Assembly (NCBI GenBank): GCA_942159475.1
Contig: OW804102.1
Span: forward strand, 36,028,873 to 36,092,872
DNA length: 64,000 bases
Direction of reading: 5' to 3'
Origin: Sthenelais limicola
Taxonomy: Eukaryota; Annelida; Polychaeta; Phyllodocida; Sigalionidae
Shown piece by piece: positions 2,503 through 43,182 of the stretch (the first letter of the stretch is position 1; each line of letters opens with the position of its first letter). A model generated the notes under the pieces. It was not told the DNA's origin, did not search any database, and saw only the letters and a program-made list of their open reading frames with translations. The translations under genes and the position numbers were made by a program.

Positions 2503-2619
2503 GAACTGATACAAAATGCTGATGATGCTGGGGCACATACTATCAAGTTCTTGCTGGATGAGAGAACAGACGCTTTCCCCACAACCAAGTTGTCACACCC
2601 AGACCTAGCCCAATTCCAG
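2503..2619 (+). CDS. Sacsin-like gene, exon with N-box of HATPase repeat 1
   Basis: The exon encodes 39 residues starting 'ELIQNADDAGAHTIKFLLDE', the N-box of the Hsp90-type ATPase fold (Asn and Asp that hold Mg-ATP) as found in sacsin repeats. It lies between a pyrimidine-rich acceptor ending 'CCCCTGTAG' and a 'CAG|GTATTT' donor, both in phase 0. It matches repeat 2 ('EMIQNADDAGALEVKLIYD') and repeat 3 ('EFAQNADDAGATELHFILD') in the giant exon. Confidence 0.9.
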
Positions 2620-2892
2620 GTATTTCCGACTTCAAATACTTGTATACATATATATAAACATTTATAAGAGTAGCAAGATATTTATCAAAACAATATGTAA
2701 ATTTTGTTAGATTCCGTTTGTCGTAATAGCTGAGATTAACTTTAATAAAACAGTGACACAGATCATTGGAAGCTGTGGGTATTTAAGATAAAGAAAATAT
2801 TGTTAGAAATTGTAACAGTTTATTGGTAAGACCAGTACAGACTACAGACAACGACATGGACATTGCTGTAATTCACAATTGACCTTTTCTAG

Positions 2893-3040
2893 GGCCCTGC
2901 ACTGTACGTGTATAATGATGGGGTATTCTCTGACGATGACTGGAGGGGTCTCCGAATGATGCACCAGAGCATCAAGAGCAAGGATCCAATTAAGACTGGT
3001 CGCTTTGGTCTTGGATTCAAGTCTATATTCCATATCACAG
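2893..3040 (+). CDS. Sacsin-like gene, exon with glycine-rich ATP lid of repeat 1
   Basis: The exon encodes 49 residues from 'GPALYVYNDGVFSDDDW' to 'GRFGLGFKSIFHIT', the G1 and G2 glycine-rich boxes that close over ATP in this fold. The acceptor is 'TTTTCTAG' and the donor is 'CACAG|GTACAT', phase 1, which fits the next exon exactly: the split codon gives Asp in 'HITDLPMILF'. Repeat 2 shows the same layout with 'GTFGLGFNVVYNITD'. Confidence 0.9.
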
Positions 3041-3072
3041 GTACATTTTGGACGAGGACCCAAACTGTACAT

Positions 3073-3302
3073 GGGTCAGATTTTCAGAAAATTGGCAGTT
3101 CTATACATTTAGCAAATTCTGCTCAATTAGGCTGAGAAATAAAGAATACCAGGTATATCTGAGTATATTTGGTATCGCATTGAGTTAACGTATCAGTTCT
3201 GCTATGTTAAACTGCATTTTGAAGCTTAAATTTTTGTCTTAAATGTGTGTTATTTGGGAGGATTGGTGAAGGCGAATTGTGCATTTTCTGAAGATTTGAC
3301 CC
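3073..3302. mobile_element. MITE, 'GGGTCAG' family, copy a1
   Basis: About 230 bp bounded by 'GGGTCAGATTTTCAGAAAAT' on the left and 'CATTTTCTGAAGATTTGACC' on the right, which are inverted complements. Related copies lie near 3311, 21292, 50698, 53203 and 56919. Confidence 0.75.
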
Positions 3303-3310
3303 ACATAAAT

Positions 3311-3506
3311 GTTAAAAGTTATCGGAAAATTTACAATTTGCCTTCACTATTCCTTTCAAATGACTTTAATTTAAGACAAAACTGTTGTTCAAGATAGTAA
3401 CTGTCCAACCTAACATACTCAGATATACCTCAGTTTATATAATTTCTGAGCCTAATTTAGCAGAATTTAACAAGTGTTGATTGTACATTTTCTGACGCCA
3501 TGAACT
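3311..3506. mobile_element. MITE, 'GGGTCAG' family, decayed copy a2
   Basis: A more decayed copy directly after a1, in the opposite orientation, ending 'TTGTACATTTTCTGA'. It shares internal 'GCCTAATTTAGCAGAATTTA' with the copies at 50.8 and 53.6 kb. Confidence 0.65.
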
Positions 3507-5120
3507 ATGTATATATATCGTAATTATCATTAAAGTAATTATAATTAAATGTTCCCCTATAGGGAATCCACATACCATATACTTACTTGTCCGCTGCCTA
3601 CCTGTTTCCTTCCCTCCCTAATGCCCTATAGATCATCCTCCCTCCTTCCCTATTGCACTTCCATTTATGCCCTCCCACCCTCCCTCCCAAAATAATGAAA
3701 GTCTATTTGGAAAAGGTGGGTTTCGGAGTGGTATATCATGGTCAAGTCACTTGACCACTAGCGACCACCCCACCCTCTGAGAAGAGGCGGATTGCCACGG
3801 AACTAAAAATTGAAGCTGTCGCAGGATATCTCGGTCATTTCCCAGTTATGTCTAGGTCATATGTCTCGACCAGTTATCACACTTAAACACTACGTACAGC
3901 AGCCTATTTAGTCTTAATCAAAAGCTATATTCGTAGGCTACATTATTGATTGGAGGAATACATACATTTATGGTAGACCAACATCAGGATAAGCACTTCT
4001 TTTGGTCCTATGGCTATTCCATTCAAACTTTTGCACACGACACCACTCGCCACTATGCATGGGTAGTAGGCTCAAGCTTCCCTCCCTGCTTCCCCAAGGT
4101 CGTGGCATCGGCCATTACCGTGAGGAGAAGGTATTATACACACTAGCACTAACAAGGAAGAGAGAGTGGAGGAAGCAGGGCGGGGTGGTGGGCAGTCATT
4201 AAAATTGAGAAAAACGACAACTATAAGAACAAAAACAGAAAATAAAATAATATCCTGTATAGGCCTCTAGCGGACTAAATTTCTGGACACGAAAACAAAG
4301 AGGTTCTTGTGAGTCCTGGATCTGAATCCAGTAGCGGTATACCAACATATCATTTCACCTCCCACCCAGTCCACGCCAACTGGGATAGCTGCCTATGGTT
4401 ATGCATCTGTAAAAGAACAATTCTATATGAATATTAAAATTGAGCAGCGTATACATACAAAAGTATATGGTGTCAAAACAGGGAGCAGATTCCTCACCCA
4501 CCCTTAAAAATATGTGTGTACTATGACTAACCAAGTCCAAGTTATTAAATAATGAAATCTTTATATTATACTGCTGGTCGCAGAATGACTAATATAAATA
4601 TACTTAGATGGAAGGCAATGATAAGTTTAGTTGGTTTGTGAGTGTGATATCATTCAAACGAATAATGGAGATGTGCGTATTGATCATCATAAGTGACAGA
4701 GCCACAAGCTATGAAGCACTAAAAGTGTGAACGACAACCACAAGCGAACCAACTTTGAGTTTTGATTCCATATTTATATCACTTCTGAAATTTCATGTTT
4801 AAATAGTGAAAATCCCTTGTTCTATTCCCACCCCCCACCCCCAACATTGTTTACATCCAGTTTACATGCATCTGATTTGTCTGTCTGAAATTTTCGAAAA
4901 ACAGAAAAGTTATGTTCTCACAAACACTTACAATGTGACCAGTAAGTAAATTTAAGTGGTCGGTAAAGTGGTTGGTAAACCCTTTCTTTGGCATTTTGTT
5001 TTTACGCAACCATGTTCTTTCGCAAGTCAAAGTTTTAAAACATTTTTAAAAAAACCTCCATTAGTGTCTATGGTATGGGTTTATGCCGTTAAAAGTGTCA
5101 TTTCATTTTTCCTTCCACAG

Positions 5121-6689
5121 ATTTGCCAATGATTCTCTTTGGCAAATGTATTGGTTTCATAGACCCTCACCAGATTTATCTCCCAGAAAGAACTTCAGCT
5201 TACCCCTGGCATATTGCAAATGATGCTGAGGCGATGAAACGATGTTGGGATCAGTTTGAACCATTATTCCTCGATGTATTTGGATCCTCGTCCATTCAAG
5301 AAGACAAACACTTTCCACACACTCTCTTTCGCTTCCCTCTACGATCCAAACCCAGTCAGTTGTCTCAGAAAGTGTGTCCTACTGAACACATCAATGACTT
5401 ATTCAAGTCCCTAGTTATTGATGATGGACAATGTTTGCTCTTTCTCAAAAGTGTAATGTGCATTGAACTATACAAACACGTGGAGGGTACCCTTAGGCCA
5501 ACTCTCTTCCACCGGGCTTCCATTGTCAAACCGCATATATCTGAGGTAATCAAAGAACGAGCTCAATTTTTGGAGCAGTTGAAAGCTGGCCATTTTTGGA
5601 CAGGGGATCCCTTGGTATCAATTCAGAAGATAGATATTGGTATAAAAACACACCTTGATACTGGCAAGGTAGAAGAAAGAAATCATGAATGGACTGTATT
5701 CCATTGGTGTGGAACAAATGGAATGAGTATGGTTGAAGTTGTAGCTAGATCAGAGCAGGTCATTCCATGTGTAGGAATTGCTATGCCTCTTTCGACCCCA
5801 GCTAACGGCCACTATTCCCCAGCAAGAGGTCGAGTCTTTGTTTCCCTTCCCTTACCTTTTGATGGGAGTGAGGATACTGGCTTACCATTCCACATCAATG
5901 GATCCTTTGTTCTTGAACAGAATCGGCGCCATTTAAAGTGGCCCACCAAAGACCAAGAAATCCAGAAAATCAGTGACTTATCTCTCCGCTGGAATCGGTT
6001 ACTGATTTCCACGCTAGTGCCATTGGTTGCTTACGAATTCCTCAATAACATTCTCCAGCATTGTGGTGAAAGTGACAGGTTTATGTCTCATCAGAAGGTA
6101 TATGCAGCCATGCCCAATGAAAGCCAAGTGGATGATAAATGGAAGGAGGTCTTACAGCAGATGTACCCAAAACTTCTTCACAAATGTTGTCTGTTCTCTC
6201 CCAATTCAAAGGAACAGATGTGGCTGGCTCCTAATAAAAGCTTCATCATCAGCAAGAAGATAAGTCTATCACAGAGGGAAATTTTAGAGGATATTTTGTT
6301 GAAGGAAGGATTTCCATTAGTGCTACCGCCAGAGCATGTTTTGGATGCAATCACTTCCTATTGTGACCTTCCCCTGAAGGAAGTGACAGTCCAGCATGTG
6401 AAAGATGCTCTACTCAAGTACCAAGCCAAAGAGAACATTCCAATGGCTGCTCGAATGGAGCTACTGCGCTACTTCTGGGATGAGGGTGATGTAGATGATC
6501 TTTGTGGACTCATGCTTATTCTGCTAGCCAACGGTCAAATTGAGAGCTTTGAGTCTTCATGGGAAAAGGCTATCTATGTTACGTCCAAGGAGCATCCTCA
6601 CACACTACTTCCATCACTGGGAAATAGGTTGCTTCTGAATGACCTGGATGAAGTAGTTCACAAAATGTTCATGGAAATCTCAAAAACTG
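5121..6689 (+). CDS. Sacsin-like gene, exon completing repeat 1
   Basis: The exon is 1569 bp and encodes 522 whole codons. It continues the HATPase fold ('FIDPHQIYLP', matching 'FDPHSIYL' in repeat 2) and includes the sacsin-repeat signature 'LPFHINGSFVLEQNRRHL', which recurs as 'FHVNGSFCLDNSRRQ' and 'LHLNGHFALDHESRQH' in repeats 2 and 3. The acceptor is 'CCTTCCACAG'. The donor is 'AAACTG|GTGAGT' at 6690, phase 1, and fits the giant exon. A methionine occurs three bases in, but the frame continues from the previous exon, so translation does not start here. Confidence 0.92.
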
Positions 6690-6924: not shown

Positions 6925-9900
6925 GTAAAACCCAAGTTAAGATGTTGGACCCCATGGCAATGATCACCTTGCTGCAAGATCTATCCATCGATTCACCAGA
7001 AGAAAGGATCCAGTTTGGGACTGGTATCTATACTCAAGATTGGGTTGAAGGAATCTGGAAATATATTCAAAGAAATGAGTGTGTCGCTGAGGCATTGACT
7101 AGCCTCCCACATTTATACCTACTCCCTGTCAACGAAAGTGAATTGTGTAAATTGAGTAGTGGGAAGAAAATGCTGGTAAAAGGGGAGGGGGCATCAATTC
7201 CTGGTACTGTTTTGGAGGCATTAGCCATGTTGGGTATCACTGTTATTTCAGATTTACCAAAGTACATCAAACCTTCAGCTGAGTTCCTTCATCAATGCAC
7301 CCTTGAAGGTGTGATGGAGGTCTTGTCAATCCATGAAAGGGATTTAGAGTCAAATTTTGCCCAAAACATGATCTCTCTCTGGAGGGACAGGAAAGAGTTA
7401 CATCAAAGCTTTGTTGGTTATCTCAGTGGTTCAGCTATAGCACAGCTCGGATCTAGGCACAGAGATCTCTTACGACGGCTCCCAATATTTTTAACTAAAA
7501 AAGGCAGTGGTGCATGCCCGCAAGAAGCAGTTCCTCTTTCCCAAGTGCAAGTGTCAGCATGGCATAGAGAGTTGCCCTGTTTGTATCCAGAGCAGGTCAT
7601 TGACATCAATATCCCTGGTACCTGTCATCTCCTTGACACACTTGGTGTGCAAAACTTCCATCGATCCCCGATTTCACACATTTTTAAGCATGTGCTACTC
7701 CCTCAGTATAAATCGTCAAGGGTTACTAGTCCCGAGCTCTCATCCATAACATTGTTTTATCTGGACCATTTCCAATCCCTATCCAAGGAAGATGAAGGGC
7801 TGAAGGACTGCATTAAGACAATAAAGAGTATATCCAATGCTGAAGGTCAAATGTCCTATGTAAGTGACTTCTTTGATCCATCTGAGGGTTTGCTTGCAGG
7901 TCTCTTGCCAGAAAGTTACTTTCTGCCAGAAGAATACTGTAATCCTCACCGATTAGAAGCTCTCCGTAACATAGGCTTTAGGAAATTGGAATCATTCAGA
8001 GAAGAAGAGCTCCTATCCATTGCAAAGTCAGTATCAGATGCTCCTGTCAAAGCACAATCATTCTTGAACCTTTTGACAGTACTATGTGAGAGAAACTTCC
8101 TTAGAGGCAGTTCCAAATTCTGGGTCGAAATGTCAGAAATCCCCTTCATTCAAATAGAACAGGTCAAGCCTAAGAACTATCCACTCTCACTTCCATGGTT
8201 TGGGGAGACAATGGAACTCATACAAGCAGGCTCTGGGATAAGACACATATCTAACTCAAAGCTAGTAGGAGCTGTTTATTCACTTGCAGACACATCAGAA
8301 GAACTTCTGGAAAAGCTGCACCCAAAGTCTCACAAGGATGAGTTACAGAGTTTAGTATCTCAACTGAAATTGGTTGTAAGATACTATTCACCAAAAGAAA
8401 AAGCACAATACATCCCACTTATAGATGAACTGTATGATGAAATATTCAAACATGACAGTGTTGCAATCACCGATGAACTGGAATATCAGTCTCTATGCCA
8501 GTGGATTTGGTCTGGAAAAGAGTTCAAATCGCTTGAGCGCATGCTCCTAAATAAGACCTATGACATTGACTTTGAGCCCCATGTCAGGTTGCTGTCACCA
8601 GAGATGGCCAAGCATAAAGATGCATTGCAAATGTGTGGAATGAAAGATAAAATAGATCCCAACATGATTTTGGAATGGATAGCTGAGGCAAATCAAGACG
8701 ACCTGATCAGAACATTAGATGAAGTGCAGAAAGACCTTGCCCTATCAGTTAAAATTCTGGAAACAATGTTTGAAATCTACTCACCAGATATTCTAGTTCC
8801 AACTGAAAACGACAACCCTCTTAAACTTAAGTTATGCCAAGCATACATCTGCACCAGACCAACATCTAGCAATTCATATGACGAAGACGAGTCAACTTAT
8901 GTCCACCATTCAGTGCCCAAGGACATCTGTGATGCCCTGCACATAAGGTCAGCAACATCTCTCAATGTAGGTACAGAAGCTCTGGAAGTTGAAGAGTGTG
9001 GGCAGTCAGAACCACTTACTAGCCGTCTTAGATCCATTATAGATGGTTATACTGATGGACTGGCTTTAGTAACTGAAATGATACAAAATGCTGATGATGC
9101 TGGAGCCTTAGAAGTCAAACTGATTTATGACATGAGGACGAATGAAAAGTTCTGTGCCAAGCTTTTAGATCCTGGTATGAAGGCCTGGCAGGGGCCTGCA
9201 TTCTGGGTCTTTAACGATGCAAAGTTTTCTGACAGAGATTTTGTCAACATCGCAAAATTGAACGGGGCAACAAAACAAGAATCAACAGATCTTATAGGAA
9301 CATTTGGCCTTGGGTTCAATGTTGTCTACAATATTACTGATGTTCCTAGCATTCTAAGTGGACAACATATGGTCATATTTGATCCACATTCAATTTACCT
9401 GAATGATGCATTAAGAACAAAAACATCTCCTGGAATCAAATTCAAAGTTACAAACAAAGTGGTGAATCGATTAAATGACCAGTTTGCCCCTTGGCAGGGT
9501 GTTTGTGGCTGCAAAATGAATGCTGAATCAGAGGCTTACTTCAATGGAACATTGTTCAGATTGCCTATTCGTGGCTACTCTGAAAGCTGCCAAAGTGAAA
9601 TAAGCAAAACAATGTACTCAATTGAATCTGCAAAAGACCTGTTCAAGATGTTAAAGGATCAGGCCCACAAGTTGCTTCTATTTACACAAAGTGTTACTAC
9701 GTTTTCAGTCACAGTCATTTCAAACACTCAGATGGTTCTTCCAGAGGAAGATTTACTGTTCATGGTTGAGAAAACCCCAACTTCATATCTCCACAAACAT
9801 GGTGTGAATTTTGAGCCGCTATCAAAAGAGCAAGAAGAATTTCGGACAGAAACCTCTTTTCTGAAAGCAGCAAAAAATTGCCTCTCACCAACTTCACAAT

Positions 9901-12900
9901 CAAGTTACACCATGGCAGTCAAGGTAGTAGCCACAAAAAAGTGGCAAGGTTTTCTGGATGGAGAAGCCCTTGCAGAGACAATAGACCAACATTGGCTTGT
10001 ATCTCACTACTATGAAAAGAAACATTGTCAACCTAGATTTCCTTTACCTGTATCAGGCATAGCAATACAAATGGAAAGCGATCAACTCAGTCTGAATGTG
10101 AAGCCATTACTTGAGGATGGCAACAGACCGTGTGGATATTTTTTTACATTTCTCCCCTTGCCACAAAAGTGTAAGCAATCTTTTCATGTGAATGGGTCAT
10201 TCTGCCTTGACAACTCAAGAAGGCAAATTTTAGAAAAATGTGATCATGATAGAGTATCTGCTAAAGGTGATTGGAACACACTGTTAATGGACAACATAGT
10301 ATCTACAAATATCTATCTTGCCTTGAAGCAATTAGCCCCGCTGGTATGCAAAGGAACAGATCTATTTCCACTTCTTCCTGTGGAGACTGTAGATGAAACA
10401 CTTCGCTCCTTAACTGAGCATTTCTGGACAAAGGTGTTTCAACATTCTGGAGACCTACAAATCTTCAAATGCTTCGAAGGATGGGTTACACTTGACAACT
10501 CACTTTTCCTGGAAGCAGGTCTCAAAGTGGATGGTGCTATGAAATCAGTCGCTCTGAAAATAATGGAACATCATCTCAAGGATGTAGAGCAAAGTGTAGT
10601 GGATATTCCCTCTGATATTGAAAATGTTATGAGGAGGGTGAACGCTGAGTTCATGCAGAAAAATACTCTCACAACTGAGAGGTTTTTCACAGAAGTATAT
10701 TTACCACATTTAAATGAATTTCTGATACCATCCAAAGACAGAAATCTTTTGCTATTCCATGGAATGACCTTGGGTTCCCAAAAAGTTGATTGGGCTTTCT
10801 CCAATAACCAATGTATTCCTGTTTGTGGTGATGCCTCATATTTTCTTCCCCCATGTGAACTCATCCATCCTATGGGAAGGGTTGCTCCACTTTATGATTT
10901 GGATGATCAACGGTTCCCCCTCTTCACTGGTTTGGACGAGTCACAAATTTTGCTGTTACTATCCAAGTTATGCTCCCTTGGGATGACTAAGGATAATATC
11001 AGAATGAAAGACTTATCAGAGCGGGCAAAAACAATTGCACAGAAAGAGAACTCTGTAAGAATTGAAAAGCTGAAAAAGCTCATGTGCTATCTTGGGTGGA
11101 TGCAAGATAATAATATTGCTGATGCTGACATTGGGAATACTCTTTATCACATCAGATATATTCCTGGCGAAGGGATCCCACAAGAGTCAAAGATGCAATG
11201 GAAAGGTGATCCATCAAGGGTTTACTGTGCAAATGAACTTTTATACCATGAAAATGCCCTGGCAGTGTGCTTGCAATATCCACACCCAAGAAAATCATTG
11301 GGAATAACTCCAGGCATTGCTGCGTTGCTTGGTATGAAGACCACAATTGATCTTACCGATATTGAAGAACAATTGAAAAAACTCTCTAATCAAACAAATT
11401 CTCCAAGGTCTGGATTTGAGAGAGATGTCATTAAGAGCTCTATGACCTACCTGGACATGGTATGCAGAGGCAATGAAAATAGTGAGGTAGTGCGAAGGAT
11501 GGTGTCAAGTCACAAAATTTTGTACTTGGAAACAGATGATGCATTTGTTTCTTCTTCACAATGCTCAACAAATTTGAACTTCAATGCTTCCCCCTATTTC
11601 TTCCGATTTACCAAACACATATTTGATGCTTTGCACAGAACCCTTCAAATAAAAGAGCAGCTTCAGCCAGAAGACTGCCTGAAACTCCTTCAACAAATCA
11701 AGAATGAAGCTGGAGAGAAACCTGTAAATGAAACCCAGGTCGTTTTGATCACAAATGTTCTACAGGAGTTGCAGAGACTCATATCTGACCAGAAGATTCC
11801 ATCACAAAAGCTTAGACAACGAGGGGACATCTATATGCTTGACACAAAATGTGTCTTATATCCTGTAGGAAAACTGGCTTACAATGACTGTCCATGGATG
11901 AAGAATGCGCTGCCCTATTTGTTGACACACCCAAATATTAACTATTCTGTGGCAAAGGATCTTGGGGCCAAAGACATTAGAACACAAATGCTATCACAGA
12001 TGAGTAAATCCCTTGGCAGACCATTTGGGCAAAAGGAAAGATTGGAGGACCGGATCAAATCAGTGCTCAATGCCTATCCATTTGGGGGGCAAATACTGTT
12101 GGAATTTGCACAGAATGCAGATGATGCAGGTGCTACAGAGTTGCATTTTATTCTGGACAAACAGACTCACAAGAAGAAATCATTGTTTGCTGATACATGG
12201 GAACACATGCAAGGACCATCTCTGTGTGTTTATAACAATGCTCCATTCTCTGATGATGATCTTGAGGGTATCATAGCTTTTGGATGTGGAAGTAAAAAGA
12301 ATAACCCAGCAAAGATTGGTCATTTTGGTGTTGGGCTCAACTGTATTTACCATCTAACTGATGTACAGCTAATTCATATCCATATGGAGAACGGAACAGA
12401 AAAGCTTCTTGCACTTGACCCAACATGTCAATTTGTTCCAGGGGTGACTACAGCTGAACCAGGAATGCTTTATGAAGAAGTAAACTTTCTCCGAGAATGT
12501 TACCCAGACATGTTCTCTGGCTTACATGAGAAGACATACAAAGGAGGCACCTTCTTCAGGTTTCCCCTCAGACAGAACATCACGAACCAAAGTCTGTCAA
12601 CAAGATATAGAAGTGTGAACGATGTTTCCAAGTTGATGCAAGATGTTCAAAATGATGGTCTAGAAGCTTTACTATTTCTCACAAGCCTGAGAAAAATTTA
12701 CTTTACAACAATCAATCAAAATGGAACACATTCCACTGAGATTATCACAGCAAATATGACAGAAGAAGCACAGAATGACATAAAAAGATTCAGGCAGAAT
12801 CTTAAGCTGGCAGCTGAAACACTTGAATCATCTCACCGTAATTTGGCACTAATACCTACACTGACAATTGCATACACAGTTAATATGCAAGGCAAGAACA

Positions 12901-15900: not shown

Positions 15901-16522
15901 CCCTGCACAAAAGAATCACTGGTGATGATGTCAAATTGCTCGATCGTCCCCTTGTTTACCTACTGGAAAAGATCCCTGAGAGCCTCAGACCAACAAATCT
16001 GACCTCACTGTACAAGGAAGTGATAAGTAAATATATTCATACCTCTCGAACAGGTGTTCAGGTTGTTGATCAGGTTGATGAGAAACTTCGTTCTCGTAGC
16101 TTTGTGCAAGGTTTTCATAGGCTTGCAAGACACATAGAATCGCGCCACTTTCAGCATAAGGCACTGCTACCACAAGAATTCGAAGAACTGTGCAAAAAAT
16201 ATTCCTCTACTTTAGAAAAGGTTAAAATCATTCCAGTTGAGCGAATGACAACAATAGTCACAGACACCAGTGGGCGGGAGTGTAGTGAAGACAAGGAGGA
16301 GATTTTGTACCTAGAACGGGAGAGGTCTATGCTTTATGTTAAAGATGATATATGTGAGAGCGAAGCAGCAGCTGATCGTACATGGCTTTGGTACTGGGTT
16401 GCAGAAATGCTGGATCAGTTGACTGATGGCTTATTCAAAAGTGATAAACAACGGTTGATGGTTATCCTCTCTATGGATATAGATGATATTGACAAAATGC
16501 TCGACAAGATGGGCATAAGTAT
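6925..16522 (+). CDS. Sacsin-like gene, giant exon with HATPase repeats 2 and 3
   Basis: One uninterrupted reading frame of about 3200 codons. Repeat 2 has the N-box at about 9079-9104 ('MIQNADDAG'), lid 'GTFGLGF' at about 9297-9317 and 'FHVNGSFCLDNSRRQ' near 10180. Repeat 3 has the N-box at about 12105-12132 ('FAQNADDAG'), a lid changed to 'GHFGVGLN' near 12318 and 'LHLNGHFALDHESRQH' near 13108. Long helical regions follow each repeat, as in sacsin, whose vertebrate gene also has a giant exon. No DnaJ or HEPN domain was seen. The frame meets TAA at 16524-16526, but a phase-2 donor 'AGTAT|GTAATT' at 16523 would splice to the CARD exon. A nearby 'GTATGT' donor would give a premature stop. A perfect 36-bp in-frame tandem duplication sits at 13854-13925. 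Shorter open frames inside it are shadows. Confidence 0.95.
13854..13925 (+). repeat. Perfect 36-bp tandem duplication within coding sequence
   Basis: Two identical 36-bp units (13854-13889, 13890-13925) each encode 'FIQTFQNDNAAV'. The duplication keeps frame and lies in the helical region after HATPase repeat 3. Identical units suggest a recent event, or possibly an assembly artefact. Confidence 0.95.
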
Positions 16523-16526
16523 GTAA

Positions 16527-30465: not shown

Positions 30466-30670
30466 GTCTGGTAGCGATTCGGAGAAGCTCAAGCCATGGG
30501 ACTCATTGCATCCAGATGGTGGGAAATTAGTCAGCAAGGTTCCCACATACCATGATATCATTTTTAATAATATTTCAACATTATTGACCTCCATGGAGTT
30601 TTCAAATATTTTCTGGGATTTGCTGGAAGATCGATCTGTTATCAATCCAAAGTTGAAGGCCAGTATACTT
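30466..30670 (+). CDS. Exon with first half of a CARD-like domain
   Basis: Encodes 68 codons plus one base, from 'SGSDSEKLKPWD' to 'PKLKASIL'. The pattern 'IIFNNISTLLTSMEF', 'IFWDLLEDRSVINPKLKASI' follows helices 1-3 of a caspase-recruitment domain (two helices, then a short 'L-acidic-x-x-V-I/L' turn, then helix 3). The acceptor is 'CAACCACTATAG'. The donor 'CTT|GTAAGT' is strong and in phase 0. The exon needs two bases from upstream, which the 'AT' at 16521-16522 of the giant exon supplies. An in-frame ATG at 30443, upstream of the acceptor, could instead start a separate CARD-RING gene. Confidence 0.65.
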
Positions 30671-30790
30671 GTAAGTAGATCTATGCTGTTTTCCATTGAC
30701 TATTTAGAAACAATGTATTTGTATTTCTTATTGCAGATGTTGTAATTGATGTGATGTATTAATCAATGTCTATCGTTATTAGTGACCTTT

Positions 30791-33379: not shown

Positions 33380-33555
33380 GAGGCCCAAACAAAGCAGACT
33401 CAAGTTATGAAACTCCTTAATGATTGCATTGTCAATGCAGAAGTCTACAAGTTCCATGGATTTGCCTGGGCATTGGTCAATTCGAAGCAGTATAGAGTGG
33501 CAAAGAAGTTAGGATTCAGTCTAAGCGTCTATCTGGATGAAACTCTATTCATACA
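33380..33555 (+). CDS. Exon with second half of the CARD-like domain
   Basis: Encodes 'EAQTKQTQVMKLLNDCIV' (helix 4 pattern), 'EVYKFHGFAWALVNS' (helix 5) and 'QYRVAKKLGF' (helix 6), in line with CARD C-terminal halves ('T-x-Q-x-x-K-L-L', then 'F-x-x-F-x-x-A-L'). The acceptor 'CTTATCCAG' is strong and in phase 0. The 3' end is uncertain: the next exon needs phase 2, available at 33555 ('ATACA|GTTTGT') or 33507 ('AAGAA|GTTAGG'). CARDs are often split by an intron near this point. Confidence 0.6.
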
Positions 33556-34239
33556 GTTTGTTTCTTTTACTTACCTCTATTTTAATGAATATCTAAATCT
33601 CCCAAAAAGTGTACAATGACCTTGAAAAGCCTTAATAATCAAACCCCATGCTTATATTTCAAAACCGGCTGTTCACAGAAACCATTTCATCTGGGAAATC
33701 AGAAATAATTGTTGTGTGTGTGTTTTGTGTTTCTTAGGTCCTTGAAAAGCGGCATCCCTCTGCTTGAAAGTCCTTTAACAGTCCTTGAGTTTATTTCACT
33801 TCCATCTAGTGAGCAGCAATATTTGAGATGTGGGTCACTAGAGCGGACAGTTTACTTTTGTCGCTTAGAAAGGACAGTAATTTTAAGCAGTGTGCTCTCA
33901 TGATCATCTTCATACATATTTCTACGATTTTGGATCTGGAGAAAACTCATCAGGAGACCTAGAGGATATCAGAATGATAGCATGGTGGTTCTAAAAGCTC
34001 ACTGGCTGCAACAAGGCAAATCTCCTGTAAAAACCAACAGTCGAGTTATTAACAAGTATGTACGTTGTACAATGAAGGTATTATAATCAATTGAAGACTG
34101 ACATTAACATTGAGTTATGGGCTCACAGGTGATAATCTGTTACAGACTAACTATGGTCTTCTGCCCACTGATGCGACTATCTAGACCTAACTCTACAGAA
34201 CAAAGTCTAACCTAAGACCATAAGGTCATGAACAAATAT
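33556..34239 (+). other. Intron sequence, no recognised feature
   Basis: A pyrimidine-rich 'TTCTTAG' followed by a short open frame at about 33739-33903 could be mistaken for an exon. Its frame closes at a TGA with no donor consistent with the gene. Nothing else was recognised. Confidence 0.5.
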
Positions 34240-34479
34240 GAAAATTAGTTTGTGCAACTGAAGCCTCAGTGGTTATATCGACCACGCCCCTTTGCTAGGG
34301 GATTAACTATGACGTCACCGGCGCCTCAGCCAATCACAGGCGGGCTAGGGTTGCCACGCCCCCCTTCCATTCTCCCAACCGTCATTCAAGTTCATTCACC
34401 GAGTCGGTGTAGACGTTGGGTCCCTCATCGCCGAAAAATTTTAATTTTTGGTCGATTTTTGTTGGATTTTTCTCCAAAT

Positions 34480-35427
34480 ATGGGAAAACCAAAGCAGTGT
34501 GCCCCGTGTGGCTATGCGCATGAACCGCCTACTGGTCAACTTTGTAATAGAAGATTAATCGCCGAGGTAAAGGCTGTAGACGGGGAAAAGACTACCCATC
34601 TCACCGATCGTGTGACGGGAATCGAAGGTATGATGGAAAAAATCATGACTGCCGTAGTTGGACTTGAGAAACGTGCTAATGACAAAGGTATTTTACCTGA
34701 AAATTCTGAAATTTCTTCTAATGATTCGGAAGTGAAGTTTGACAAGCCAAGATTCTCTCGTCGTGATGAGATGGGAGTTCCCGGAGGTGCCGAGGGAGGT
34801 AACCGTCAACAGTCCGATGAATCGTTCTATCGTCGTCGCTCGAGGAGCCCGAGTGTTGTCAGCTCGATCTACGATGTACAAGGCAGTGATCACCGTCGTA
34901 GGAGGGCTAGATCGGCTTCAAGAACAAGGTCGAAGCCTTTTGATCATTCTAACGAATTAGAAAAAGGTGAAGAGATTGAGAATTTTGAAACATTACTTTT
35001 ACTAAATCTTAAACTGGTTGCAAAGCTGTTGACTGATGAACGGCCGCATGGCGAGATCACCGGAGTAGTAAATCATGCCATCACGATGTGTGAAAAATCT
35101 AAATCTCAAATCTATTTGCTGAAGGCTAGCATAGCCTATGATAAAGCTGTACGTGTGAGAGCTAATAAGTTAGGCTTAGAGGCTTTCAATGATGTTAAGC
35201 AAGAAGAAGTGCTTCGTACGTACTCGTATGAGAATTCGAAGAGGGCTTCGGGGACGTCATCGTCGATGGACAAAAAATCGTCAGCAAAGAGGAAAGAAAA
35301 AGTCTGTTTCAAGTTTAATTCCGCTGCTGGGTGTGCAAAATCATCGTGTGAATTTCCCCACAAATGTTCTATTTGCTTTGCTAGTGACCATTCTGCTCGG
35401 TCATGTTCATTGAAGGTTAGCAAATAG
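34480..35427 (+). CDS. DIRS-type gag-like protein
   Basis: About 315 residues from 'MGKPKQCAPCGYAHEPP'. The open frame extends upstream to 34252, but this ATG starts the first plausible gag sequence. The middle is charged and serine/arginine-rich. The C-terminus has Cys/His clusters: 'CFKFNSAAGC...CEFPH' (CCCH-like) and 'CSICFASDHSARSC', a CX2CX4HX4C zinc knuckle typical of retroelement nucleocapsid proteins. The stop at 35427 lies 115 bp before the RT frame. Confidence 0.65.
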   Translation: MGKPKQCAPCGYAHEPPTGQLCNRRLIAEVKAVDGEKTTHLTDRVTGIEGMMEKIMTAVVGLEKRANDKGILPENSEISSNDSEVKFDKPRFSRRDEMGVPGGAEGGNRQQSDESFYRRRSRSPSVVSSIYDVQGSDHRRRRARSASRTRSKPFDHSNELEKGEEIENFETLLLLNLKLVAKLLTDERPHGEITGVVNHAITMCEKSKSQIYLLKASIAYDKAVRVRANKLGLEAFNDVKQEEVLRTYSYENSKRASGTSSSMDKKSSAKRKEKVCFKFNSAAGCAKSSCEFPHKCSICFASDHSARSCSLKVSK

Positions 35428-35541
35428 GATACGGACAGCGAACAAGAGTTCTCAAGGGTCAAGGTTGATTCTAGTTGTTATGGTGATTTCAATGTAGGTC
35501 GGGGAAGCCCTTCCGCTGGTTGGGAAAGTCCTTCCGGTAAA

Positions 35542-37488
35542 ATGGCGGCCATGGATGGAAAGACTGAACATTTGGACACTCATGCAGCTAAGTTTTCTCC
35601 CGATTTAACTCTTTTCGCTAATGTCGAGCCCGTTTTTGACCCTGATGATGTGTGTTATGACATTTTTCATAATATTGCAAATTTTGTGAATGGTAATCCA
35701 TGTGATAGCGGTGATAATGTTATTTTTGTAGCGCCGAAATCTCCGGCGGGTAATGATATTATAGTTTACACCGAATGTGCCAAGGGCATTTGTACATGTA
35801 TTCACTCTTTGGGAGATCTCCCTGTTCAATTGAAACCCTGTAGGTTCGCATATGCCATTTTTTGTCAAGGTAGAAAATTTGTTGACGAATATATCAATGT
35901 TTTCTTCAATGTGTGTGATGGTGTAAACATCGTAGATACGGTCCCTGAACCTTACGAGTGTGAGAATTATCGTTCGATCCTAGAGGATGGTCCTCGTCTA
36001 AAAATGGATAAAATCATTGCTAACGAACTTAAGGAAGGTTATATTTCTGTTACAAACGAAAAACCCCATTGTGTCCATGCTTTAGGTGCCGTTAACAAGC
36101 CTGATGGTGGTATACGTCCCATCACGGACTGTAGTCGTCCTTTTGGATTATCTGTTAATGATCATTGTGCCAGTTTGGTAAGGGAATTTTCATATAATTC
36201 AGTCGAAGATGCTGTTGATCTTATCGGTAATGATTATTATATGTCTGTTATTGACATTAAATCTGCTTATAGAGCAGTTGCTGTTAATCCCAACCATTGT
36301 AAATACTGTGGCTTTGCTTGGAATTTCAATGGGGTAAATACTTATTTCATTGACAACCGTATGTGTTTTGGATTAAAAACTGGTCCATGCTATTTTGACT
36401 CTATCTCAAATATCATAGCCGATATCTTAAAGAACACTTGTGATGTAGAAATCGTAAATTATTTAGACGATTTTTTCGTGTGTGGTGGTACTTATGAGGA
36501 ATGTTTATCAGCCAGAGATGCAGTAGTACAAGTATTGAGGTATCTGGGTTTTTATGTCGCCTGGCATAAAGTTACTGCTCCTTCAAAACAATGCAAATAC
36601 CTAGGATTTGATATAAATTCAAATGATATGTCCATTTCTCTGCCTGTAGAAAAGGTGAAAAAGTTAAATGATCTAACAGGTATGTTGGAATCAAAAGATT
36701 TCATCACAAAAAAGGAGCTAGAAAAGGCGTGTGGTTATGTCAGCCATTGCTCAGTTGTCTATCCTGGGGGTAGGACCTTCTGTCGTAAATTTTTTGATCT
36801 GTATAAGGTTATGATTAACAAACATATAACCAGGATACGAATTTCTGATGAATTTCGAAGGGATTTAAAATGGTGGAAAGCTTTCACTAATTTTTTCAAT
36901 GGCAGACGGTTATTGCATAAAGATGTATACACATATCCCATGATTTCTGATTCTTCCAGCAAAGGATTCGGGGTGTATTTAAATTGTGACTGGATGGCTG
37001 GAGTTTGGGATGATATTTCTCAACCTTTTGTCGATTCTGAATGTGGTCATTTGGCTCTGAGCCCCACTGATGGTGTACAAGCTACCAATATTAATATACA
37101 AGAACTATATCCTGTGATGCTTGGTGTTAAACGATGGAAACACTATTTCAAAGGTTTTAAAGTTAAATGTTTCATAGATAATACACAGGTTATTGCTATG
37201 CTAAAAAATGGTGTGAGTTCTAGCAGTCAGGCTATGGAATGGCTATACGAACTATACTGGGTCTGCTTTATTTATGACATTGAGTTGGAGCCCATATATA
37301 TTAACACAAAAAACAATTTCATTGCTGACACTTTATCTCGACTTGCATATTTTTCTACTGACTCGCCTGAAATTGGCTATTTATCAGCAGCAAGTTTGTG
37401 TTGTAGTGAATATTTATTATTCTCTTCTGACAGGACCAACAAGGTTGATGAACATGGTGTTAAATCTCAGGAAAATGTCAGTTTGTAA
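35542..37488 (+). CDS. DIRS-type reverse transcriptase and RNase H
   Basis: 648 residues, intact. The RT palm shows 'SVIDIKSAYRAV' (first catalytic Asp) and 'VNYLDDFF' (YLDD box). The connection is followed by an RNase H domain with 'SDSSSKGFGVYL', 'NINIQELYPVM', 'CFIDNTQVIAML' and 'NNFIADTLSRL', which carry the four acidic residues. This RT-RNase H arrangement before a tyrosine recombinase is characteristic of DIRS elements. No frameshift was seen, which suggests recent activity. The first ATG in the frame (35542) was taken as start. Confidence 0.9.
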   Translation: MAAMDGKTEHLDTHAAKFSPDLTLFANVEPVFDPDDVCYDIFHNIANFVNGNPCDSGDNVIFVAPKSPAGNDIIVYTECAKGICTCIHSLGDLPVQLKPCRFAYAIFCQGRKFVDEYINVFFNVCDGVNIVDTVPEPYECENYRSILEDGPRLKMDKIIANELKEGYISVTNEKPHCVHALGAVNKPDGGIRPITDCSRPFGLSVNDHCASLVREFSYNSVEDAVDLIGNDYYMSVIDIKSAYRAVAVNPNHCKYCGFAWNFNGVNTYFIDNRMCFGLKTGPCYFDSISNIIADILKNTCDVEIVNYLDDFFVCGGTYEECLSARDAVVQVLRYLGFYVAWHKVTAPSKQCKYLGFDINSNDMSISLPVEKVKKLNDLTGMLESKDFITKKELEKACGYVSHCSVVYPGGRTFCRKFFDLYKVMINKHITRIRISDEFRRDLKWWKAFTNFFNGRRLLHKDVYTYPMISDSSSKGFGVYLNCDWMAGVWDDISQPFVDSECGHLALSPTDGVQATNINIQELYPVMLGVKRWKHYFKGFKVKCFIDNTQVIAMLKNGVSSSSQAMEWLYELYWVCFIYDIELEPIYINTKNNFIADTLSRLAYFSTDSPEIGYLSAASLCCSEYLLFSSDRTNKVDEHGVKSQENVSL

Positions 37489-38062
37489 TTCTACACAAAC
37501 TCAACGATCAAGACAGTGGATGTGTTTCTCCAAGTTCTTAGCTGATCATCATCTTCCTTCTCACCATGTTACTGTGGATATTATGTGTATGTATTCTGCC
37601 TGCCTGTCAAGTTATATGAAACACTCATCAATTATTACATATCTGAATGCGGTGGTGTTTGGGGCTAGACTCAGGAATATTCCTTATGTTTCCCTTGCTC
37701 ATCCAGATATTAAATGTACTTTAAAAGGCATTTCTAAGCTGCCTGGAGCTGCTTTATCTCCATCAGCCCCCATCCTGCCTATACATCTACAAAAAATGAG
37801 GAAATTCGTCGACTGTGGATGTGAGCAAGAGTATCTTGCCTGGTCTATTTTTATTTTTTTATTCAGGACACTTTTAAGGGTTGGACATGTCATTATTTCT
37901 CCCCATACGATTTGCAGGAGAGACATTACAATTACCCCTTGGGGTATGGAAGTGGTGGTGAATTCTTCAAAGACGTCTTCATCTCCATTTATTATTCCTG
38001 TTGCAAAAAGCAAATCTAAAGACTTGTGTGCTGTTCATGCACTATGTTTGTATATGGCTTAG
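37448..38062 (+). pseudogene. DIRS tyrosine recombinase, C-terminally truncated
   Basis: About 204 codons overlapping the RT frame. The N-terminal SAM-like region ('HHVTVDIMCMYSACLSSYMK') and the first catalytic Arg region ('FLFRTLLRVGHVIISP') are present. The frame ends at TAG after 'CAVHALCLYMA', before the His-x-x-Arg and nucleophilic Tyr that family members need. A fixed deletion or nonsense change at the 3' end of the element is inferred. Confidence 0.7.
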
Positions 38063-38130
38063 GTATCTAGTGGCAGCGTGAAGCTACAGCATGCACTTTG
38101 TGCTTTGGGTATTTAGTGGCAGCGTGAAGG
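38063..38130 (+). repeat. Imperfect direct repeat after the DIRS element
   Basis: 'TATCTAGTGGCAGCGTGAAG' occurs just after the truncated recombinase and again 44 bp later with one change. It may be part of the element's terminal or split repeats. Confidence 0.55.
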
Positions 38131-38689
38131 TCAAATCTTCAAATCTTTGTGTTTGGCTAGATTGCTTGGGGATCTAGTAGTATTTTGTTGTGCTTGAGGT
38201 TTCTGAACTGTTTGTAAGAGGCTTGTGTATTTTTCTGTTGATGTGAGTGAATTCCATCCCTGTGCGCTGTTGTGGCAGGGTGTATTTTTCATTTTTGAGA
38301 GATTTGTTTTTTGTTATGGGTAGTACTTATGTTGTGAGCGGGTGGTGTTTCTTTTGTATGAGTCATTGCTGGAGGGTGCCTCACAGGATCACCGCAAGGC
38401 ATAACAGGTGTCTTGCCCTCCTCCATTCCAGTGGTTCTAGCCCTAGGGATGGAAGTATGCTTGATACAGATTTGTGTTTATGTGTAAGTGTAATGATTCT
38501 AGTGGCCCTTGTTTAGATGTGTTCAAGTTTGCTTGTGTTAGATTGTTTTGCGAAATTGAGTGGATGACTTATAGTCAAGAAGAGGGAGTATCATTACTTT
38601 GTAGATTTTTAGTGTTGATTGTTTGGTCAGCATGTGTCTGATGCGTTCAGCTGTGGGTACAGCTAGGTGTGCATTATCTGTATTTCTTT

Positions 38690-39950
38690 CATTAACAAAT
38701 GATCAATCAGAGATGCTGGGAAATCATACTTGCATAGGAAGACTCATTAGAGGTTGCTGTGAGGCAAACCCACCAAAAACTAAATATAAAGAAATGTGGG
38801 ATGTGAACCAAGTGCTTCAAGAGATGGTTTAAAATTCTAAACTTTTATTGAAATACTTTGGAAGGTGGTTACCCTTATCGCTTTAGTTTCAGCTCAAAGA
38901 AGCCAAGTTATTCATGCGTTAACAGTTTTGGGTATTACTTGGGAAGATGACCAAGTTATTTTTTCAATAGATTCTCTGTTGAAACATAATAGAGAAGGAA
39001 GGAAAACCTCCTAACAACAATTAAAATTTTGATATTCAAAGAAGATGCTCGGTTATGGCCTTGTATGTGCTTATCTATGTACTTAGCTATATCTAAGGAA
39101 CTCAGATGGTCAGAGGACCAGCTTTTCATATCTTATAGTGGAAAACACAATAAAGTGGCTAAAGACACTATATCCAGATGGATTCATTACACACTCCAGT
39201 AGAATTGATATTTCTCTTTTTTCTCCCCCTGTTCAACAGGTCTTATTTCTGTTGTCATGTTTCTTGTTCTCTTCCATCTCGTGTCTGTTCCAAGTTTTTT
39301 CAATCTTTACACCTTATGTATCTTGTCTTGTATCTGCTCATCTCCTTCTATATATTCATACTTCACTTTCACTGTTGGTCCTCTCTTCTCTCTTCTTCAT
39401 ATGTGACTGTAGTAGGTGCATTTCGGTTTGGGACATATCTTACCAGCTGCCAGCCTCCATGCTCGCTATCACAGTCACAGGCCAGTGGGTGGTCACCCAT
39501 TCCCTGACCTGTAATTATCCTGATTAACCAGGCCCAGGAACACTGATAACTGTGGAGGACGTGACTTAAGTGTCAGGGCCTTCCCCAAAGTCGCGCTTAT
39601 AAATGCAGTAAGTGACCCTCCACTTGTTAGACAGTCTCCCCAATGAGCCTTCAGCCAGCAATCTCCCCAGGGTTGGGGGCAACATTGGTATAAATTCCTG
39701 CCAGCTAATGGATGCAAAACCCTCAACCTCCCGACCTAAAGGACAGCTCCTACCACCTGAACCACAGAGGACAGTAGGAATTGATATTTCAATTTACAAG
39801 GTGCATAGTACTAGATCTCCTAGTACAGCAAATGCTGCAGATGCCAGTCGCCAGTATTTTGCCAAGGCAGGATGGACGAAATCTGTGATATTTGGGAAAT
39901 TCTACAAAAAGACAATCCCAGAAAATGCTGACATGAGAAACGCGATCTGG
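38690..39950 (+). pseudogene. Second, decayed tyrosine-recombinase copy split by an insertion
   Basis: Recombinase motifs appear in several frames with stops: 'PPKTKYKEMWDVNQVLQ' (about 38771), 'ALVSAQRSQVIHALTVLG' (38880, first catalytic Arg region), 'QLFISYSGKHNKVAKDTISR' (about 39120) and, after a gap, 'HSTRSPSTANAADAS' plus 'AGWTKSVIFGKFYKK' (about 39800-39920, His-x-x-Arg and Tyr). The gap at 39215-39773 is an insertion. This copy differs from the DIRS recombinase at 37448 and is from another lineage. Confidence 0.75.
39215..39773 (-). mobile_element. SINE-like insertion with about 16-bp target duplication
   Basis: About 560 bp sits inside the decayed recombinase and is flanked by 'GTAGAATTGATATTTC' (39199-39214) and 'GTAGGAATTGATATTTC' (39774-39790). 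Read on the - strand, the start resembles a tRNA-derived head with an A-box-like 'TGGTTCAGGTGGTAGG' and a B-box-like 'GGTTGAGGGTTTTGC'. The - strand end is purine-rich ('GGGGGAGAAAAAAGAGAAA'). A tRNA-derived SINE is the best reading. Pyrimidine-rich + strand open frames here are not genes. Confidence 0.65.
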
Positions 39951-40513
39951 ATGGATGACTTTACTTACCCCCCCTCCCCCCCCCCCCCCTGCCACTTCTA
40001 GTGGGATACCTCCGTCCCACCCTTTATTATCAGTTTAATTCATTTTAGTTAAGATTTATCAGGAGATTTTAAGATATGAAAACTGTCCGCTCTAGTTGCC
40101 TACATCTCAAATGTTGTTTTGTTTTTACAGTATACATATATATAAGGCGAATATGCAAGCATTATATGCACCATAAAGTGAGCTATCCACTCTATAATGT
40201 ATTGCCTAGTTGTTGATGATAACACTTTGTTACCTGGGTATCCTTGTAATCATGTCTGAAGTCATAAAATGCAACTGTCACTCATACTTAAGCAGAGAAG
40301 TGTATTAGATTATTATTTTTATTAAAAAGTGTATTTAATTGGTACCCCCAAATAGGACATGTAGAAGATCCTAACCTGTGCAGTGACTGTGCCACTGATG
40401 CAACTCGATCTATCAATCTGACCACTAGCATGTGTAGTACCAAATACTCTTAAAGCCTAAGCCTGATTTGAAACCATGACTATTGGCATCTTTCTATCTT
40501 TCTTGTAATTCAG

Positions 40514-41021
40514 ACACTCTCACTTCCTCTGCCCGGCTTGCCATGAGTATTATGTTAAGGCATATATCATGTCTGAATGTGGACATTACGTATGTTCCCC
40601 CTGTGCCAAAGGTGCACAGTTCCTATGCAAAGATAATGGCATAGAAGAAATCACCTGTCCTGTTCCAGAGTGTGGCAAGTCCACTGAGACAATCAGCAAA
40701 TCTGATGAGGGAGCCATTGGTCTACCAGAGGATGATGGGTATGCCTTGGTTTGTAATCTGGTGAAAAGAACTGCAAAACAGATTCTTGATGGTGATACAA
40801 AGAGAACGGATGGTAAAACAACTGTACCTAATAAATCCCTTGAGGAAAGAGCATCTGCCATGAGAATTAAAGAGGAGACCTATCAGAAACACCTTGATAC
40901 AATTGCTACCAACATCACAAGGCTTGAAGGATACTGTGCAGGCTCAAGATTTAAATTGGTCAAGTGGGTGGAGCAATGGTACCAAGAAAAGAAGGAATTT
41001 CTACATAATGTGTCAAAAGAG
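40514..41021 (+). CDS. Exon with C3HC4 RING finger and helical region
   Basis: Encodes 169 codons. The RING has the pairs 'CPAC' and 'SEC-GH-YVCSPC', then 'CPVPEC', giving C-x2-C, C-x-H-x2-C-x2-C and a final C-x4-C. These are the zinc ligands of a C3HC4 RING E3 ubiquitin ligase that binds an E2. A helical, charged segment follows ('MRIKEETYQKHLDTIA...', 'WVEQWYQEKKEFLHNVSKE'), coiled-coil-like as in TRIM proteins, but no B-box was seen. The acceptor is 'TTGTAATTCAG' and the donor 'AAAGAG|GTATAC', phase 0. The ATG at 40569 lies within the RING after its first two cysteines, so translation should start upstream. Confidence 0.85.
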
Positions 41022-41232
41022 GTATACAGTCCTGAATGAAATTTTAAGATTAATGATTTACAATATAAAACGAAATCAGTGTCAATTATTTTGTTTTATC
41101 ACATATCCCATGCACTTGCTACATGTGTCTATTTTCTTACAACTCATGACCAAATGCTCAGATAGAGGATATTTGATCAATGGACAGCAATTAATGTTGT
41201 CTAAAGTCAATCTTCTTTGCACTTATCTCCAG

Positions 41233-41470
41233 GTAAAAACCATCCATGCTGAGGCCCTCCAGTGGATAAAGTTACATGAAGACTTGGCTATTCTCACTGG
41301 TACATACCAGCTAGATTTGACTCCTGAGATTACAAAACTAAAGTCTCCATCTGAGCGTAAGGGTGCATCTCCTGAAGTGCTTTCATTTTTACAACAACTC
41401 AATTCTGGGGTCAATGTACCAAAGGAAATCTGTTTACCGAGGGAGCTGGACTTACTGGCCATAACTGGAG
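41233..41470 (+). CDS. Exon with helical linker after the RING
   Basis: Encodes 79 codons from 'VKTIHAEALQWIKLHEDLA' to 'LPRELDLLAITG', a helical stretch followed by a serine/proline-containing linker. The acceptor is 'TTATCTCCAG' (phase 0) and the donor 'GGAG|GTACTA' (phase 1), matching the neighbours on both sides. No known domain was recognised in it. Confidence 0.8.
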
Positions 41471-41708
41471 GTACTATATTACCTGGTAGGTGTTGTTTTT
41501 AACTAGAATATGACAATGGCTCCGCTTCTGGGTCGCCACATTCTATAAGTTGTGCATAACCTTGTAATTGTATTAAGATATATTCCAAATTGGTTGCACA
41601 ACTGTTTATATTAATACATTAATTTGCATCTCTCAGTTCTTCATCACATGGCTTATAACCTGCTTTTGGAGACATTATTATTGCGAGCTTATTGAAAGAA
41701 TTAGAGCT

Positions 41709-41990
41709 TTTCATGAGAGAGAGAGAGATGGAGAGAGAGAGAGACATCCCCTCTCTCTCCCTCCTCCCCCTCCCTCTCTATCACTTTCCTGTTCTCCTTT
41801 CGGGGGAGAGTAGGGGGGGGAGGGGAAGGGAGCTGTATGTCGAAAAGAGAACAGGAAAGTGATAAGAGAGCGAGGGGGAGGAGGGAGAGAGAGGGGATGT
41901 ACAACGGGATGGAGAGAGAGGGGATGTACAACGGGAGTTAGAGGTGAGAAAGACAGAGATAGAGAGAGAAATGATAGAGACAGAGCGCGA
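41709..41990. repeat. GA/CT-rich low-complexity block
   Basis: 'GAGAGAGAGA' and 'CTCTCTCCCTCC' runs face each other, so the strand could fold. It also contains a tandem 'GGGATGTACAACGGGA' (about 41896 and 41920). Confidence 0.85.
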
Positions 41991-42129
41991 ATACAGAATT
42001 TAAAGAGAAAATTTCACATATTTCTCACGAAAAGCATATCTGTTTCTATACAGTAATAATACCACCTCAATACACATAAATATATTAAATATTTGGTATC
42101 TGATATATATATCAGGAATATTTTGTAAG

Positions 42130-42230
42130 ACGCCAGGGCCCACCCACCTTCAGACGCTAGGACTCTGGGCCCTAGCACCTAAGGTTTCTGGGCCCTAGCA
42201 TTGTTGGGCCCTAATATCTGGGGCCCTTCT
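42130..42230 (+). repeat. GGGCCCTAG minisatellite
   Basis: Four imperfect units of about 22-25 bp around 'CTGGGCCCTAGCA'. The style resembles the 'CTGGGCGCTAGGATCC' units at 29.8 kb, so the two arrays may be one family. Confidence 0.65.
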
Positions 42231-42382
42231 ATCAGTACCAGAATGCACTAAAAGGTGGATGTCATTACGTTGAGGAGGCGCAGGATACTGATCAAATTAT
42301 GTTAAATCGTTCTTGTTTGATTACAATTTCAATCCAAATCTTAGAGGTCTGATATGTGATAGTTTCTATTAATTCTTTTCAG

Positions 42383-43182
42383 ATAAAATGGTTGAATTAT
42401 TAGAATGGAGGAATATGCCTACAGATGGGACCTTAGTGGATATAGACTGGACGACTGATGGAGATCTAATTGTGCTGTCAAACAAAAGGCTTAAAAGGCT
42501 TGAACTGAATCTGAAGAGAGAAAATCCTGCACCAGTGGTCAGATATGATGTTCAATGTAAAGGGGATACATCAATTTTGTGTGCTCCTGATGGTTTGATC
42601 TATGTAAAAACCACTAGTTATTCATATACTCAATGTACTTATACACAGACACTTCGATGGGTTGGTACTTGGGAACCGCCTAAAATGTCACATTATTGCA
42701 TTCACACTATGCTTTGGAATAATCAACACCTTGTTCTCTTACGTCGGCCAGGCAATCCGCATGTCTACCTTTATGATATGCAGAGAAACTACAGGCAGTC
42801 TCAACCTTTTCAGCATGATGGGCCCCGAAAACTTTGCATGATTGGAGACACTGCAATAGGCATGATGAACGATCAATTTTCAATGCTAAACCTTAGAACG
42901 CTTCAATCAATAACCAAAGCGGGGGACTATGGTAAAGGATTTGTTACAAATCCTGTCTCTATTGTTCCCTTTGGTGATGAGCATCTCCTGCTTTATGGAT
43001 CAAACCCATCAACATTCAAAGTTTACACAGCTGACTGTGAATATTCCCACACTGTGAAGGCACTGAATGGTGTTGATCCAAATGAAACACTGCTGTGTCT
43101 GGCTGCCTATCCTAAGGTAGGACCACCCAAGTATTTAGCCACAGCTGCAAACAATACTATCAAAATATATGCACTTTTGTGA
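42383..43182 (+). CDS. Terminal exon: C-terminal beta-propeller-like domain
   Basis: Encodes 265 residues and a TGA (43180-43182). The sequence shows five to six repeating blocks of 'G-x-L-hydrophobic-turn' strands: 'GTLVDIDWTTDGDLIVLSNK', 'TSILCAPDGLIYVKT', 'HLVLLRRPGNPHVYLYD', 'LCMIGDTAIGMMNDQ', 'HLLLYGSNPSTFKVYT' and 'KYLATAANNTIKIYALL'. This is the look of an NHL- or WD-type propeller, as at the C-terminus of TRIM-NHL ligases, where it recruits substrate. The acceptor 'TTCTTTTCAG' is in phase 1. Exact blade family and count are not certain. Confidence 0.85.

Follow-up and report, generated by a model that had tools for sequence, protein, structure and literature searches.

A sacsin-repeat giant gene in the annelid Sthenelais limicola lacks the usual sacsin tail and may continue into CARD-like, RING and beta-rich domains

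We analysed a stretch of 64,000 nucleotides from the polychaete Sthenelais limicola (GenBank assembly GCA_942159475.1, contig OW804102.1, positions 36,028,873 to 36,092,872 of the forward strand; hereafter the window, numbered from its first letter), which contains a giant gene with sacsin repeats. Our preferred reading, to which we give a probability of roughly 0.55, is that of one gene in which the usual tail of such giants (post-repeat region, J-like region and HEPN domain) is replaced by a CARD-like domain, a RING finger, a coiled coil and a beta-rich domain, possibly a propeller. An earlier sequence-only reading had proposed nine exons on the same strand with compatible phases, and this was borne out: from 2503 to 43182, nine exons on the + strand, flanked by AG/GT splice sites and compatible in phase, join without internal stops into a frame of 13,374 bases with a single stop at its end, encoding 4,457 amino acids. 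The N terminus is missing because the first exon lies upstream of the window, as would any counterpart of the N-terminal ubiquitin-like domain of vertebrate sacsin. The exons and the long interval between them are as follows.

2503..2619, + strand: exon, start of sacsin repeat 1 (ELIQNADDAGA); PF25794 at 35.6 bits, frame, splice sites and motif
2893..3040, + strand: exon, glycine-rich nucleotide-binding motif of sacsin repeat 1 (GRFGLGFK); PF25794 at 60.5 bits and motif
5121..6689, + strand: exon, remainder of sacsin repeat 1; PF25794, E 1.9e-19
6925..16522, + strand: giant exon, sacsin repeats 2 and 3, ending in LDKMGI; PF25794, E 5.6e-133, relatives and donor scores
16523..30465, + strand: putative intron of 13.9 kb, or intergenic DNA if there are two genes; repeats and units resembling short interspersed elements (SINEs)
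30466..30670, + strand: predicted exon, a linker plus the N-terminal half of the CARD-like domain; 30432 as another possible acceptor
33380..33555, + strand: predicted exon, C-terminal half of the CARD-like domain; another, stronger donor in the same phase at 33507
40514..41021, + strand: exon, RING finger (C3HC4) and beginning of a helical stretch; PF00097, metal ligands and a low-confidence model
41233..41485, + strand: predicted exon, helical linker resembling a coiled coil; heptad scan without control, coding and splice score
42383..43182, + strand: last exon with the stop codon, encoding a beta-rich C-terminal domain that resembles a propeller; weak Beta-prop_EML_2 match and low-confidence all-beta model

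Three sacsin repeats with intact nucleotide-binding motifs are present, in agreement with the sequence-only reading. The Pfam family PF25794 (cut-off 32.8 bits) matched the first two exons with 35.6 and 60.5 bits, exon 5121-6689 with 70.9 bits and the giant exon with 442.7 bits over two stretches. The Hsp90-like ExxQNADDA motif is kept in every repeat (ELIQNADDA, EMIQNADDA and EFAQNADDA), each time together with a glycine-rich box, and the giant open reading frame (ORF) is intact over 3,222 codons. At 13853-13927 the giant exon carries a perfect in-frame 36-bp tandem duplication, by which 12 residues are repeated.

The end of the giant exon was compared with 128 sacsin relatives, made up of the 120 listed among 794 matches to the giant exon and of eight more obtained with its C-terminal part. 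They are 22-31% identical to the giant exon, and 127 of them align to its last 699 residues. Alignments ending short of the exon end (71 of the 127) were excluded from the tail count, leaving 56 that reach LDKMGI. Of these, 54 run on for 94-439 further residues with a conserved tail, which shows a GEYVGY-like motif at most 95 residues past the exon end in 51 relatives and close variants of it in the other three. An HPD motif, as in J domains, occurs in 37 of the 40 relatives that have at least 274 further residues.

We built a tail profile from the first 95 tail residues and assessed it by leave-one-out over 29 non-redundant relatives. The left-out tail ranked first in 29 of 29 cases; its first 50 residues alone outscored all fragments of the window in 28 of these 29 cases, and with its second half this held for all 29. 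In the six frames of the window (2,772 translated fragments) the conserved post-repeat tail was not found, the best match (6.0 bits) being an antisense fragment within the giant exon. Since the profile is silent in the window and its control succeeded throughout, we conclude that this is a sacsin-repeat gene without the usual tail within 47 kb downstream. The conserved tail by which a sacsin proper (an orthologue) would be recognized is absent from the window. A profile for the J-like region and HEPN gave a best window match of E 4.9, and no left-out control was run for this profile. At the leave-one-out sensitivity of the tail profile, we reject the idea that the tail was overlooked in small exons. 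Also rejected was a CARD exon as a diverged sacsin tail, a likeness noticed by eye (DS...P.G...P...H): it scored -0.2 bits, and 296 of 3,927 scored shuffles were as high.

One gene is favoured because the giant exon stops at the very point beyond which relatives carry a conserved tail, lacking here, because the 14 kb interval holds no internal coding exon above the antisense control, and because no in-frame ATG precedes the domains of the CARD and RING exons, apart from one in poor context at 30443. Exons were scored by codon usage and splice sites after training on sacsin exons, a score that applies to internal exons and leaves first exons unscored. Between 16522 and 30466 the best sense candidate reached 16.8 and the best antisense candidate 16.7. 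The coding score is +8.2 bits from 30467 and -5.5 bits immediately upstream. Splicing would join 16522 to 30466.

A number of observations weigh against one gene of this composition; those on the junction and the relatives are given here, and those on the CARD-like and C-terminal domains where these are described. For the junctions proposed in the sequence-only reading, frame and phases hold but the donors are weak. Donor 16522 has 1.8 bits, which is the 75th percentile of all GT sites, and an alternative in-frame donor at 16518 (3.7 bits) requires a weaker acceptor at 30432 (3.9 bits against 6.3 at 30466). Agreement of phase across this junction is weak evidence, because several in-frame pairings of donor and acceptor are possible. 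An in-frame stop follows at 16526, two codons past the conserved point, so that the giant exon could simply be terminal. Two of the 56 relatives, P0025 and P0098, likewise stop 8 and 11 residues past this point. None of the 128 relatives shows the RING pattern, which had been verified on the RING of the window as a positive control, and neither CARD nor RING is among the Pfam domains listed for the relatives inspected. The window tail itself found no match among the 128 (best E 0.85). A search of protein databases for the CARD-RING-propeller tail, covering proteins of about 357-1,137 residues, gave 6,641 candidates and none at E ≤ 0.001. As an observation on one of these relatives, the ORF of P0025 (2,705 amino acids) seems to begin at an exon boundary similar to that of the giant exon.

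These observations keep alive a second explanation, which we consider possible though less probable: two neighbours on the same strand, the first a tail-less sacsin gene stopping at 16526 and the second a separate ubiquitin ligase (E3) gene with CARD, RING, coiled coil and beta domain, starting near 30443 or from an unseen first exon. The stop at 16526 and an ATG at 30443, in frame and ahead of the CARD exon, are what chiefly sustain it; the weak donor, an AATAAA at 17168 downstream of the giant exon that could end the first gene, and the lack of such a tail in the relatives also fit. However, the end of the sacsin part would then coincide precisely with the conserved point that 54 of 56 relatives run past, the ATG at 30443 has a poor context and lies in a stretch scored as non-coding (-5.5 bits), and the 14 kb hold no coding-like internal exon, short first exons being outside the scoring. 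The one-gene reading is favoured over two genes, although its junction from sacsin to CARD depends on weak splice sites.

The sequence-only reading had assigned a CARD to the product of 30466-33555, and here the evidence is divided. We used a profile of ten CARDs (one consensus sequence plus nine natural CARDs), with which the spliced stretch scored 13.4 bits. No shuffle among the 4,599 scored (5,000 made) and no sacsin fragment among the 672 scored came up to this value, and left-out natural CARDs scored 33-68. With the CARD consensus alone, 7 of the 5,000 shuffles made matched or exceeded the stretch. These results support a CARD-like fold, which remains a prediction from sequence comparison. 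An unrelated helical linker in this place, the locus then coding only for a sacsin giant that may or may not have a RING tail, is in our view unlikely, and it can draw on several results. Pfam returned no CARD for the stretch at E up to 10, the only family listed being KRIT1_FRMD8_FERM_C with 14.9 bits (cut-off 29). A profile from four seed CARDs failed to separate the stretch from shuffles, 187 of 4,474 scored being as high. When single exons were compared with window fragments using the ten-CARD profile, the best score was that of an antisense fragment (10.0 bits), followed by CARD exon 2 (6.7 bits), and CARD exon 1 was not among the fragments listed. A phmmer search of the stretch against solved structures gave no match. 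The codon and splice scores of the CARD exons do not exceed antisense noise: exon 2, taken as 33380-33507, scored 19.8, and antisense candidates elsewhere in the window reached 24.6, or 32.4 in a low-complexity stretch. Donor 33555 has -0.6 bits and the same-phase donor 33507 has 3.3. It is the score of the spliced stretch, unmatched by shuffles or sacsin fragments, that speaks against a mere linker. Our estimates for the different readings do not sum to one, because doubt about the CARD is compatible with either gene count.

Very improbable is a third account, a normal sacsin gene whose tail exons were displaced or lost from the haplotype or assembly next to an unrelated CARD-RING gene, the locus perhaps being a rearranged or decaying copy: the conserved tail of 54 of the 56 relatives aligned to the exon end fits it, and the repeat-rich intron with its 0.5 kb duplication could break the locus, but the 3,222-codon ORF is intact, the window contains no N and no remnant of the tail lies in the 47 kb downstream.

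The RING was confirmed as the sequence-only reading had named it. The family zf-C3HC4 (PF00097) reached 21.7 bits with the ORF and 21.5 with the exon, just over the cut-off of 21.0, and all eight C3HC4 metal ligands are present. No ATG precedes the first cysteine of the RING exon, whose frame requires an exon further upstream that ends with two bases of a codon; as the CARD exon supplies one of matching phase, CARD and RING are supported as parts of one unit. Behind the RING, a low-confidence model contains helices, and 41233-41485 resembles a coiled coil in a heptad scan made without control. No Pfam family matched this linker exon, and no B-box family was found at E up to 1 in the RING exon or in 41233-41484.

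For the last exon the sequence-only reading had named a propeller. An all-beta model of very low confidence (AlphaFold, predicted local distance difference test score 38) and a sub-threshold match to Beta-prop_EML_2 (18.7 bits; cut-off 90) point in this direction, but the exon showed no periodicity of blade length (P 0.24) and Foldseek with this very low-confidence model returned no fold match. The propeller identity of the C-terminal domain is therefore unproven, and we refer to it as beta-rich.

The claim that no other gene lies between the exons needs some correction. Most of the intron between 33555 and 40514 is occupied by a retroelement on the same strand, which we label DIRS-like because of its inverted repeats and the layout of its ORFs.

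33817..40116, + strand: DIRS-like retroelement (type inferred) in the intron between CARD and RING; limits taken at its 37-nt inverted repeats (89%); three ORFs
34249-35427, + strand: retroelement ORF, gag-like by eye, no Pfam match
35428-37488, + strand: retroelement ORF, reverse transcriptase, 686 open codons; PF00078, E 1.3e-16
37217-38062, + strand: retroelement ORF, no Pfam match

The Pfam scans of these ORFs identified no tyrosine recombinase, and NCBIfam gave only a weak match of a group-II-intron reverse transcriptase, to the retroelement. Outside the inverted repeats the intron measures 261 and 397 bases, so that without the retroelement CARD and RING would be about 0.66 kb apart.

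The 14 kb interval is rich in repeats. At 27524-28564 it carries a head-to-tail duplication of about 0.5 kb, which is probably recent because the copies are 96-99% identical. Two tandem units resembling tRNA-derived SINEs by eye (29939-30272; 87-97% alike) lie just upstream of the CARD exon, and a perfect 26-nt inverted repeat (24262-24287 and 25871-25896, 1.6 kb apart) possibly marks the ends of a small DNA element. We scanned seven ORFs of at least 108 amino acids from 16500-30500 and five from the flanks and the retroelement with Pfam, and no family reached its cut-off in these twelve. In the window as a whole, no tRNA or Rfam RNA genes were found at the thresholds used. A gene on the minus strand was considered and rejected; the top score of 32.4 belongs to low-complexity sequence at 44741-45069 and nothing among the remaining candidates was convincing.

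In its order of RING, coiled coil and beta-rich C-terminal domain, the predicted tail resembles TRIM-type ligases, which combine these parts with NHL or other propellers at the C terminus. Unlike in these, Pfam lists no B-box for the RING exon or the next, the CARD-like domain stands ahead of the RING, and the propeller is unconfirmed. Arabidopsis AT5G23110 is probably a sacsin-type giant with a C-terminal RING, and it is not known to have a CARD, coiled coil or propeller. The plant giant and the window gene are likely to be independent fusions.

According to PMC3710099, animal sacsin (SACS) is a chaperone that combines three Hsp90-like modules with a DnaJ domain and a HEPN domain. The window gene shares with it three repeats with Hsp90-like motifs, of which two share a giant exon, and can be aligned to the end of that exon; it differs in having no conserved post-repeat tail, and a J-like region and HEPN were not found in the window. 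Also related are sacsin paralogues with N-terminal Death domains (for instance in Amphimedon), which are described for some animals, with several in a sponge (PMC3710099), and the TRADD-N-sacsin fusions named in PMC8195603. Like the window gene as we read it, these forms join sacsin repeats to a death-fold domain or an adaptor of death pathways. The Death domain of the former, as described, is N-terminal on a sacsin that bears HEPN, whereas in the window the CARD-like domain and RING would follow the repeats and no HEPN was found. The ligases cIAP1 and cIAP2 (BIRC2/3) combine CARD and RING in one protein, and in cIAP1 the CARD is reported to block RING dimerization, with conflicting reports noted (PMC3789170). 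This is a precedent for a CARD next to a RING. In contrast to cIAP1 and cIAP2, the window exons scanned contain no BIR or UBA family, sacsin repeats lie upstream, and a helical stretch and beta domain follow the RING. Our literature search, conducted on open-licence papers at the level of titles and the beginnings of abstracts, did not meet a sacsin whose repeats are followed by CARD and RING where the J/HEPN tail would normally stand. Fusion of a sacsin repeat array with a death-fold domain as such has precedents.

From its parts, the most likely working of the fused protein would be a RING ubiquitination of captured client under control of the CARD. In this scheme, the sacsin repeats would hold misfolded or foreign client assemblies, and the CARD would recruit other CARD proteins or keep the neighbouring RING inactive as reported for cIAP1. 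On clustering, the CARD would free the RING, which would dimerize via the coiled coil and ubiquitinate the client, and the C-terminal beta domain may select the substrate. Tagging with ubiquitin would thus replace the transfer of client to Hsp70 via the J domain. Control by CARD assembly was already proposed in the sequence-only reading, and it is from the domain composition that we, too, infer it. At slightly under even odds, and accordingly with reserve, we suggest that one animal protein carries CARD, RING, coiled coil and propeller in exchange for the Hsp70-directed sacsin tail and that client capture by this giant chaperone would lead to death-fold assembly and ubiquitination.

Opinions on the biochemical role of sacsin still differ. 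Sacsin-like giants occur in invertebrates, and sacsin is reportedly mentioned in immune-challenge studies of oysters and mussels. If the one-gene reading is true, the repeats would act on a CARD-RING module where sacsin has a J domain, and this would point to a client-sensing scaffold with exchangeable outputs. Protein quality control would then be coupled to innate immune or cell-death signalling within one molecule.

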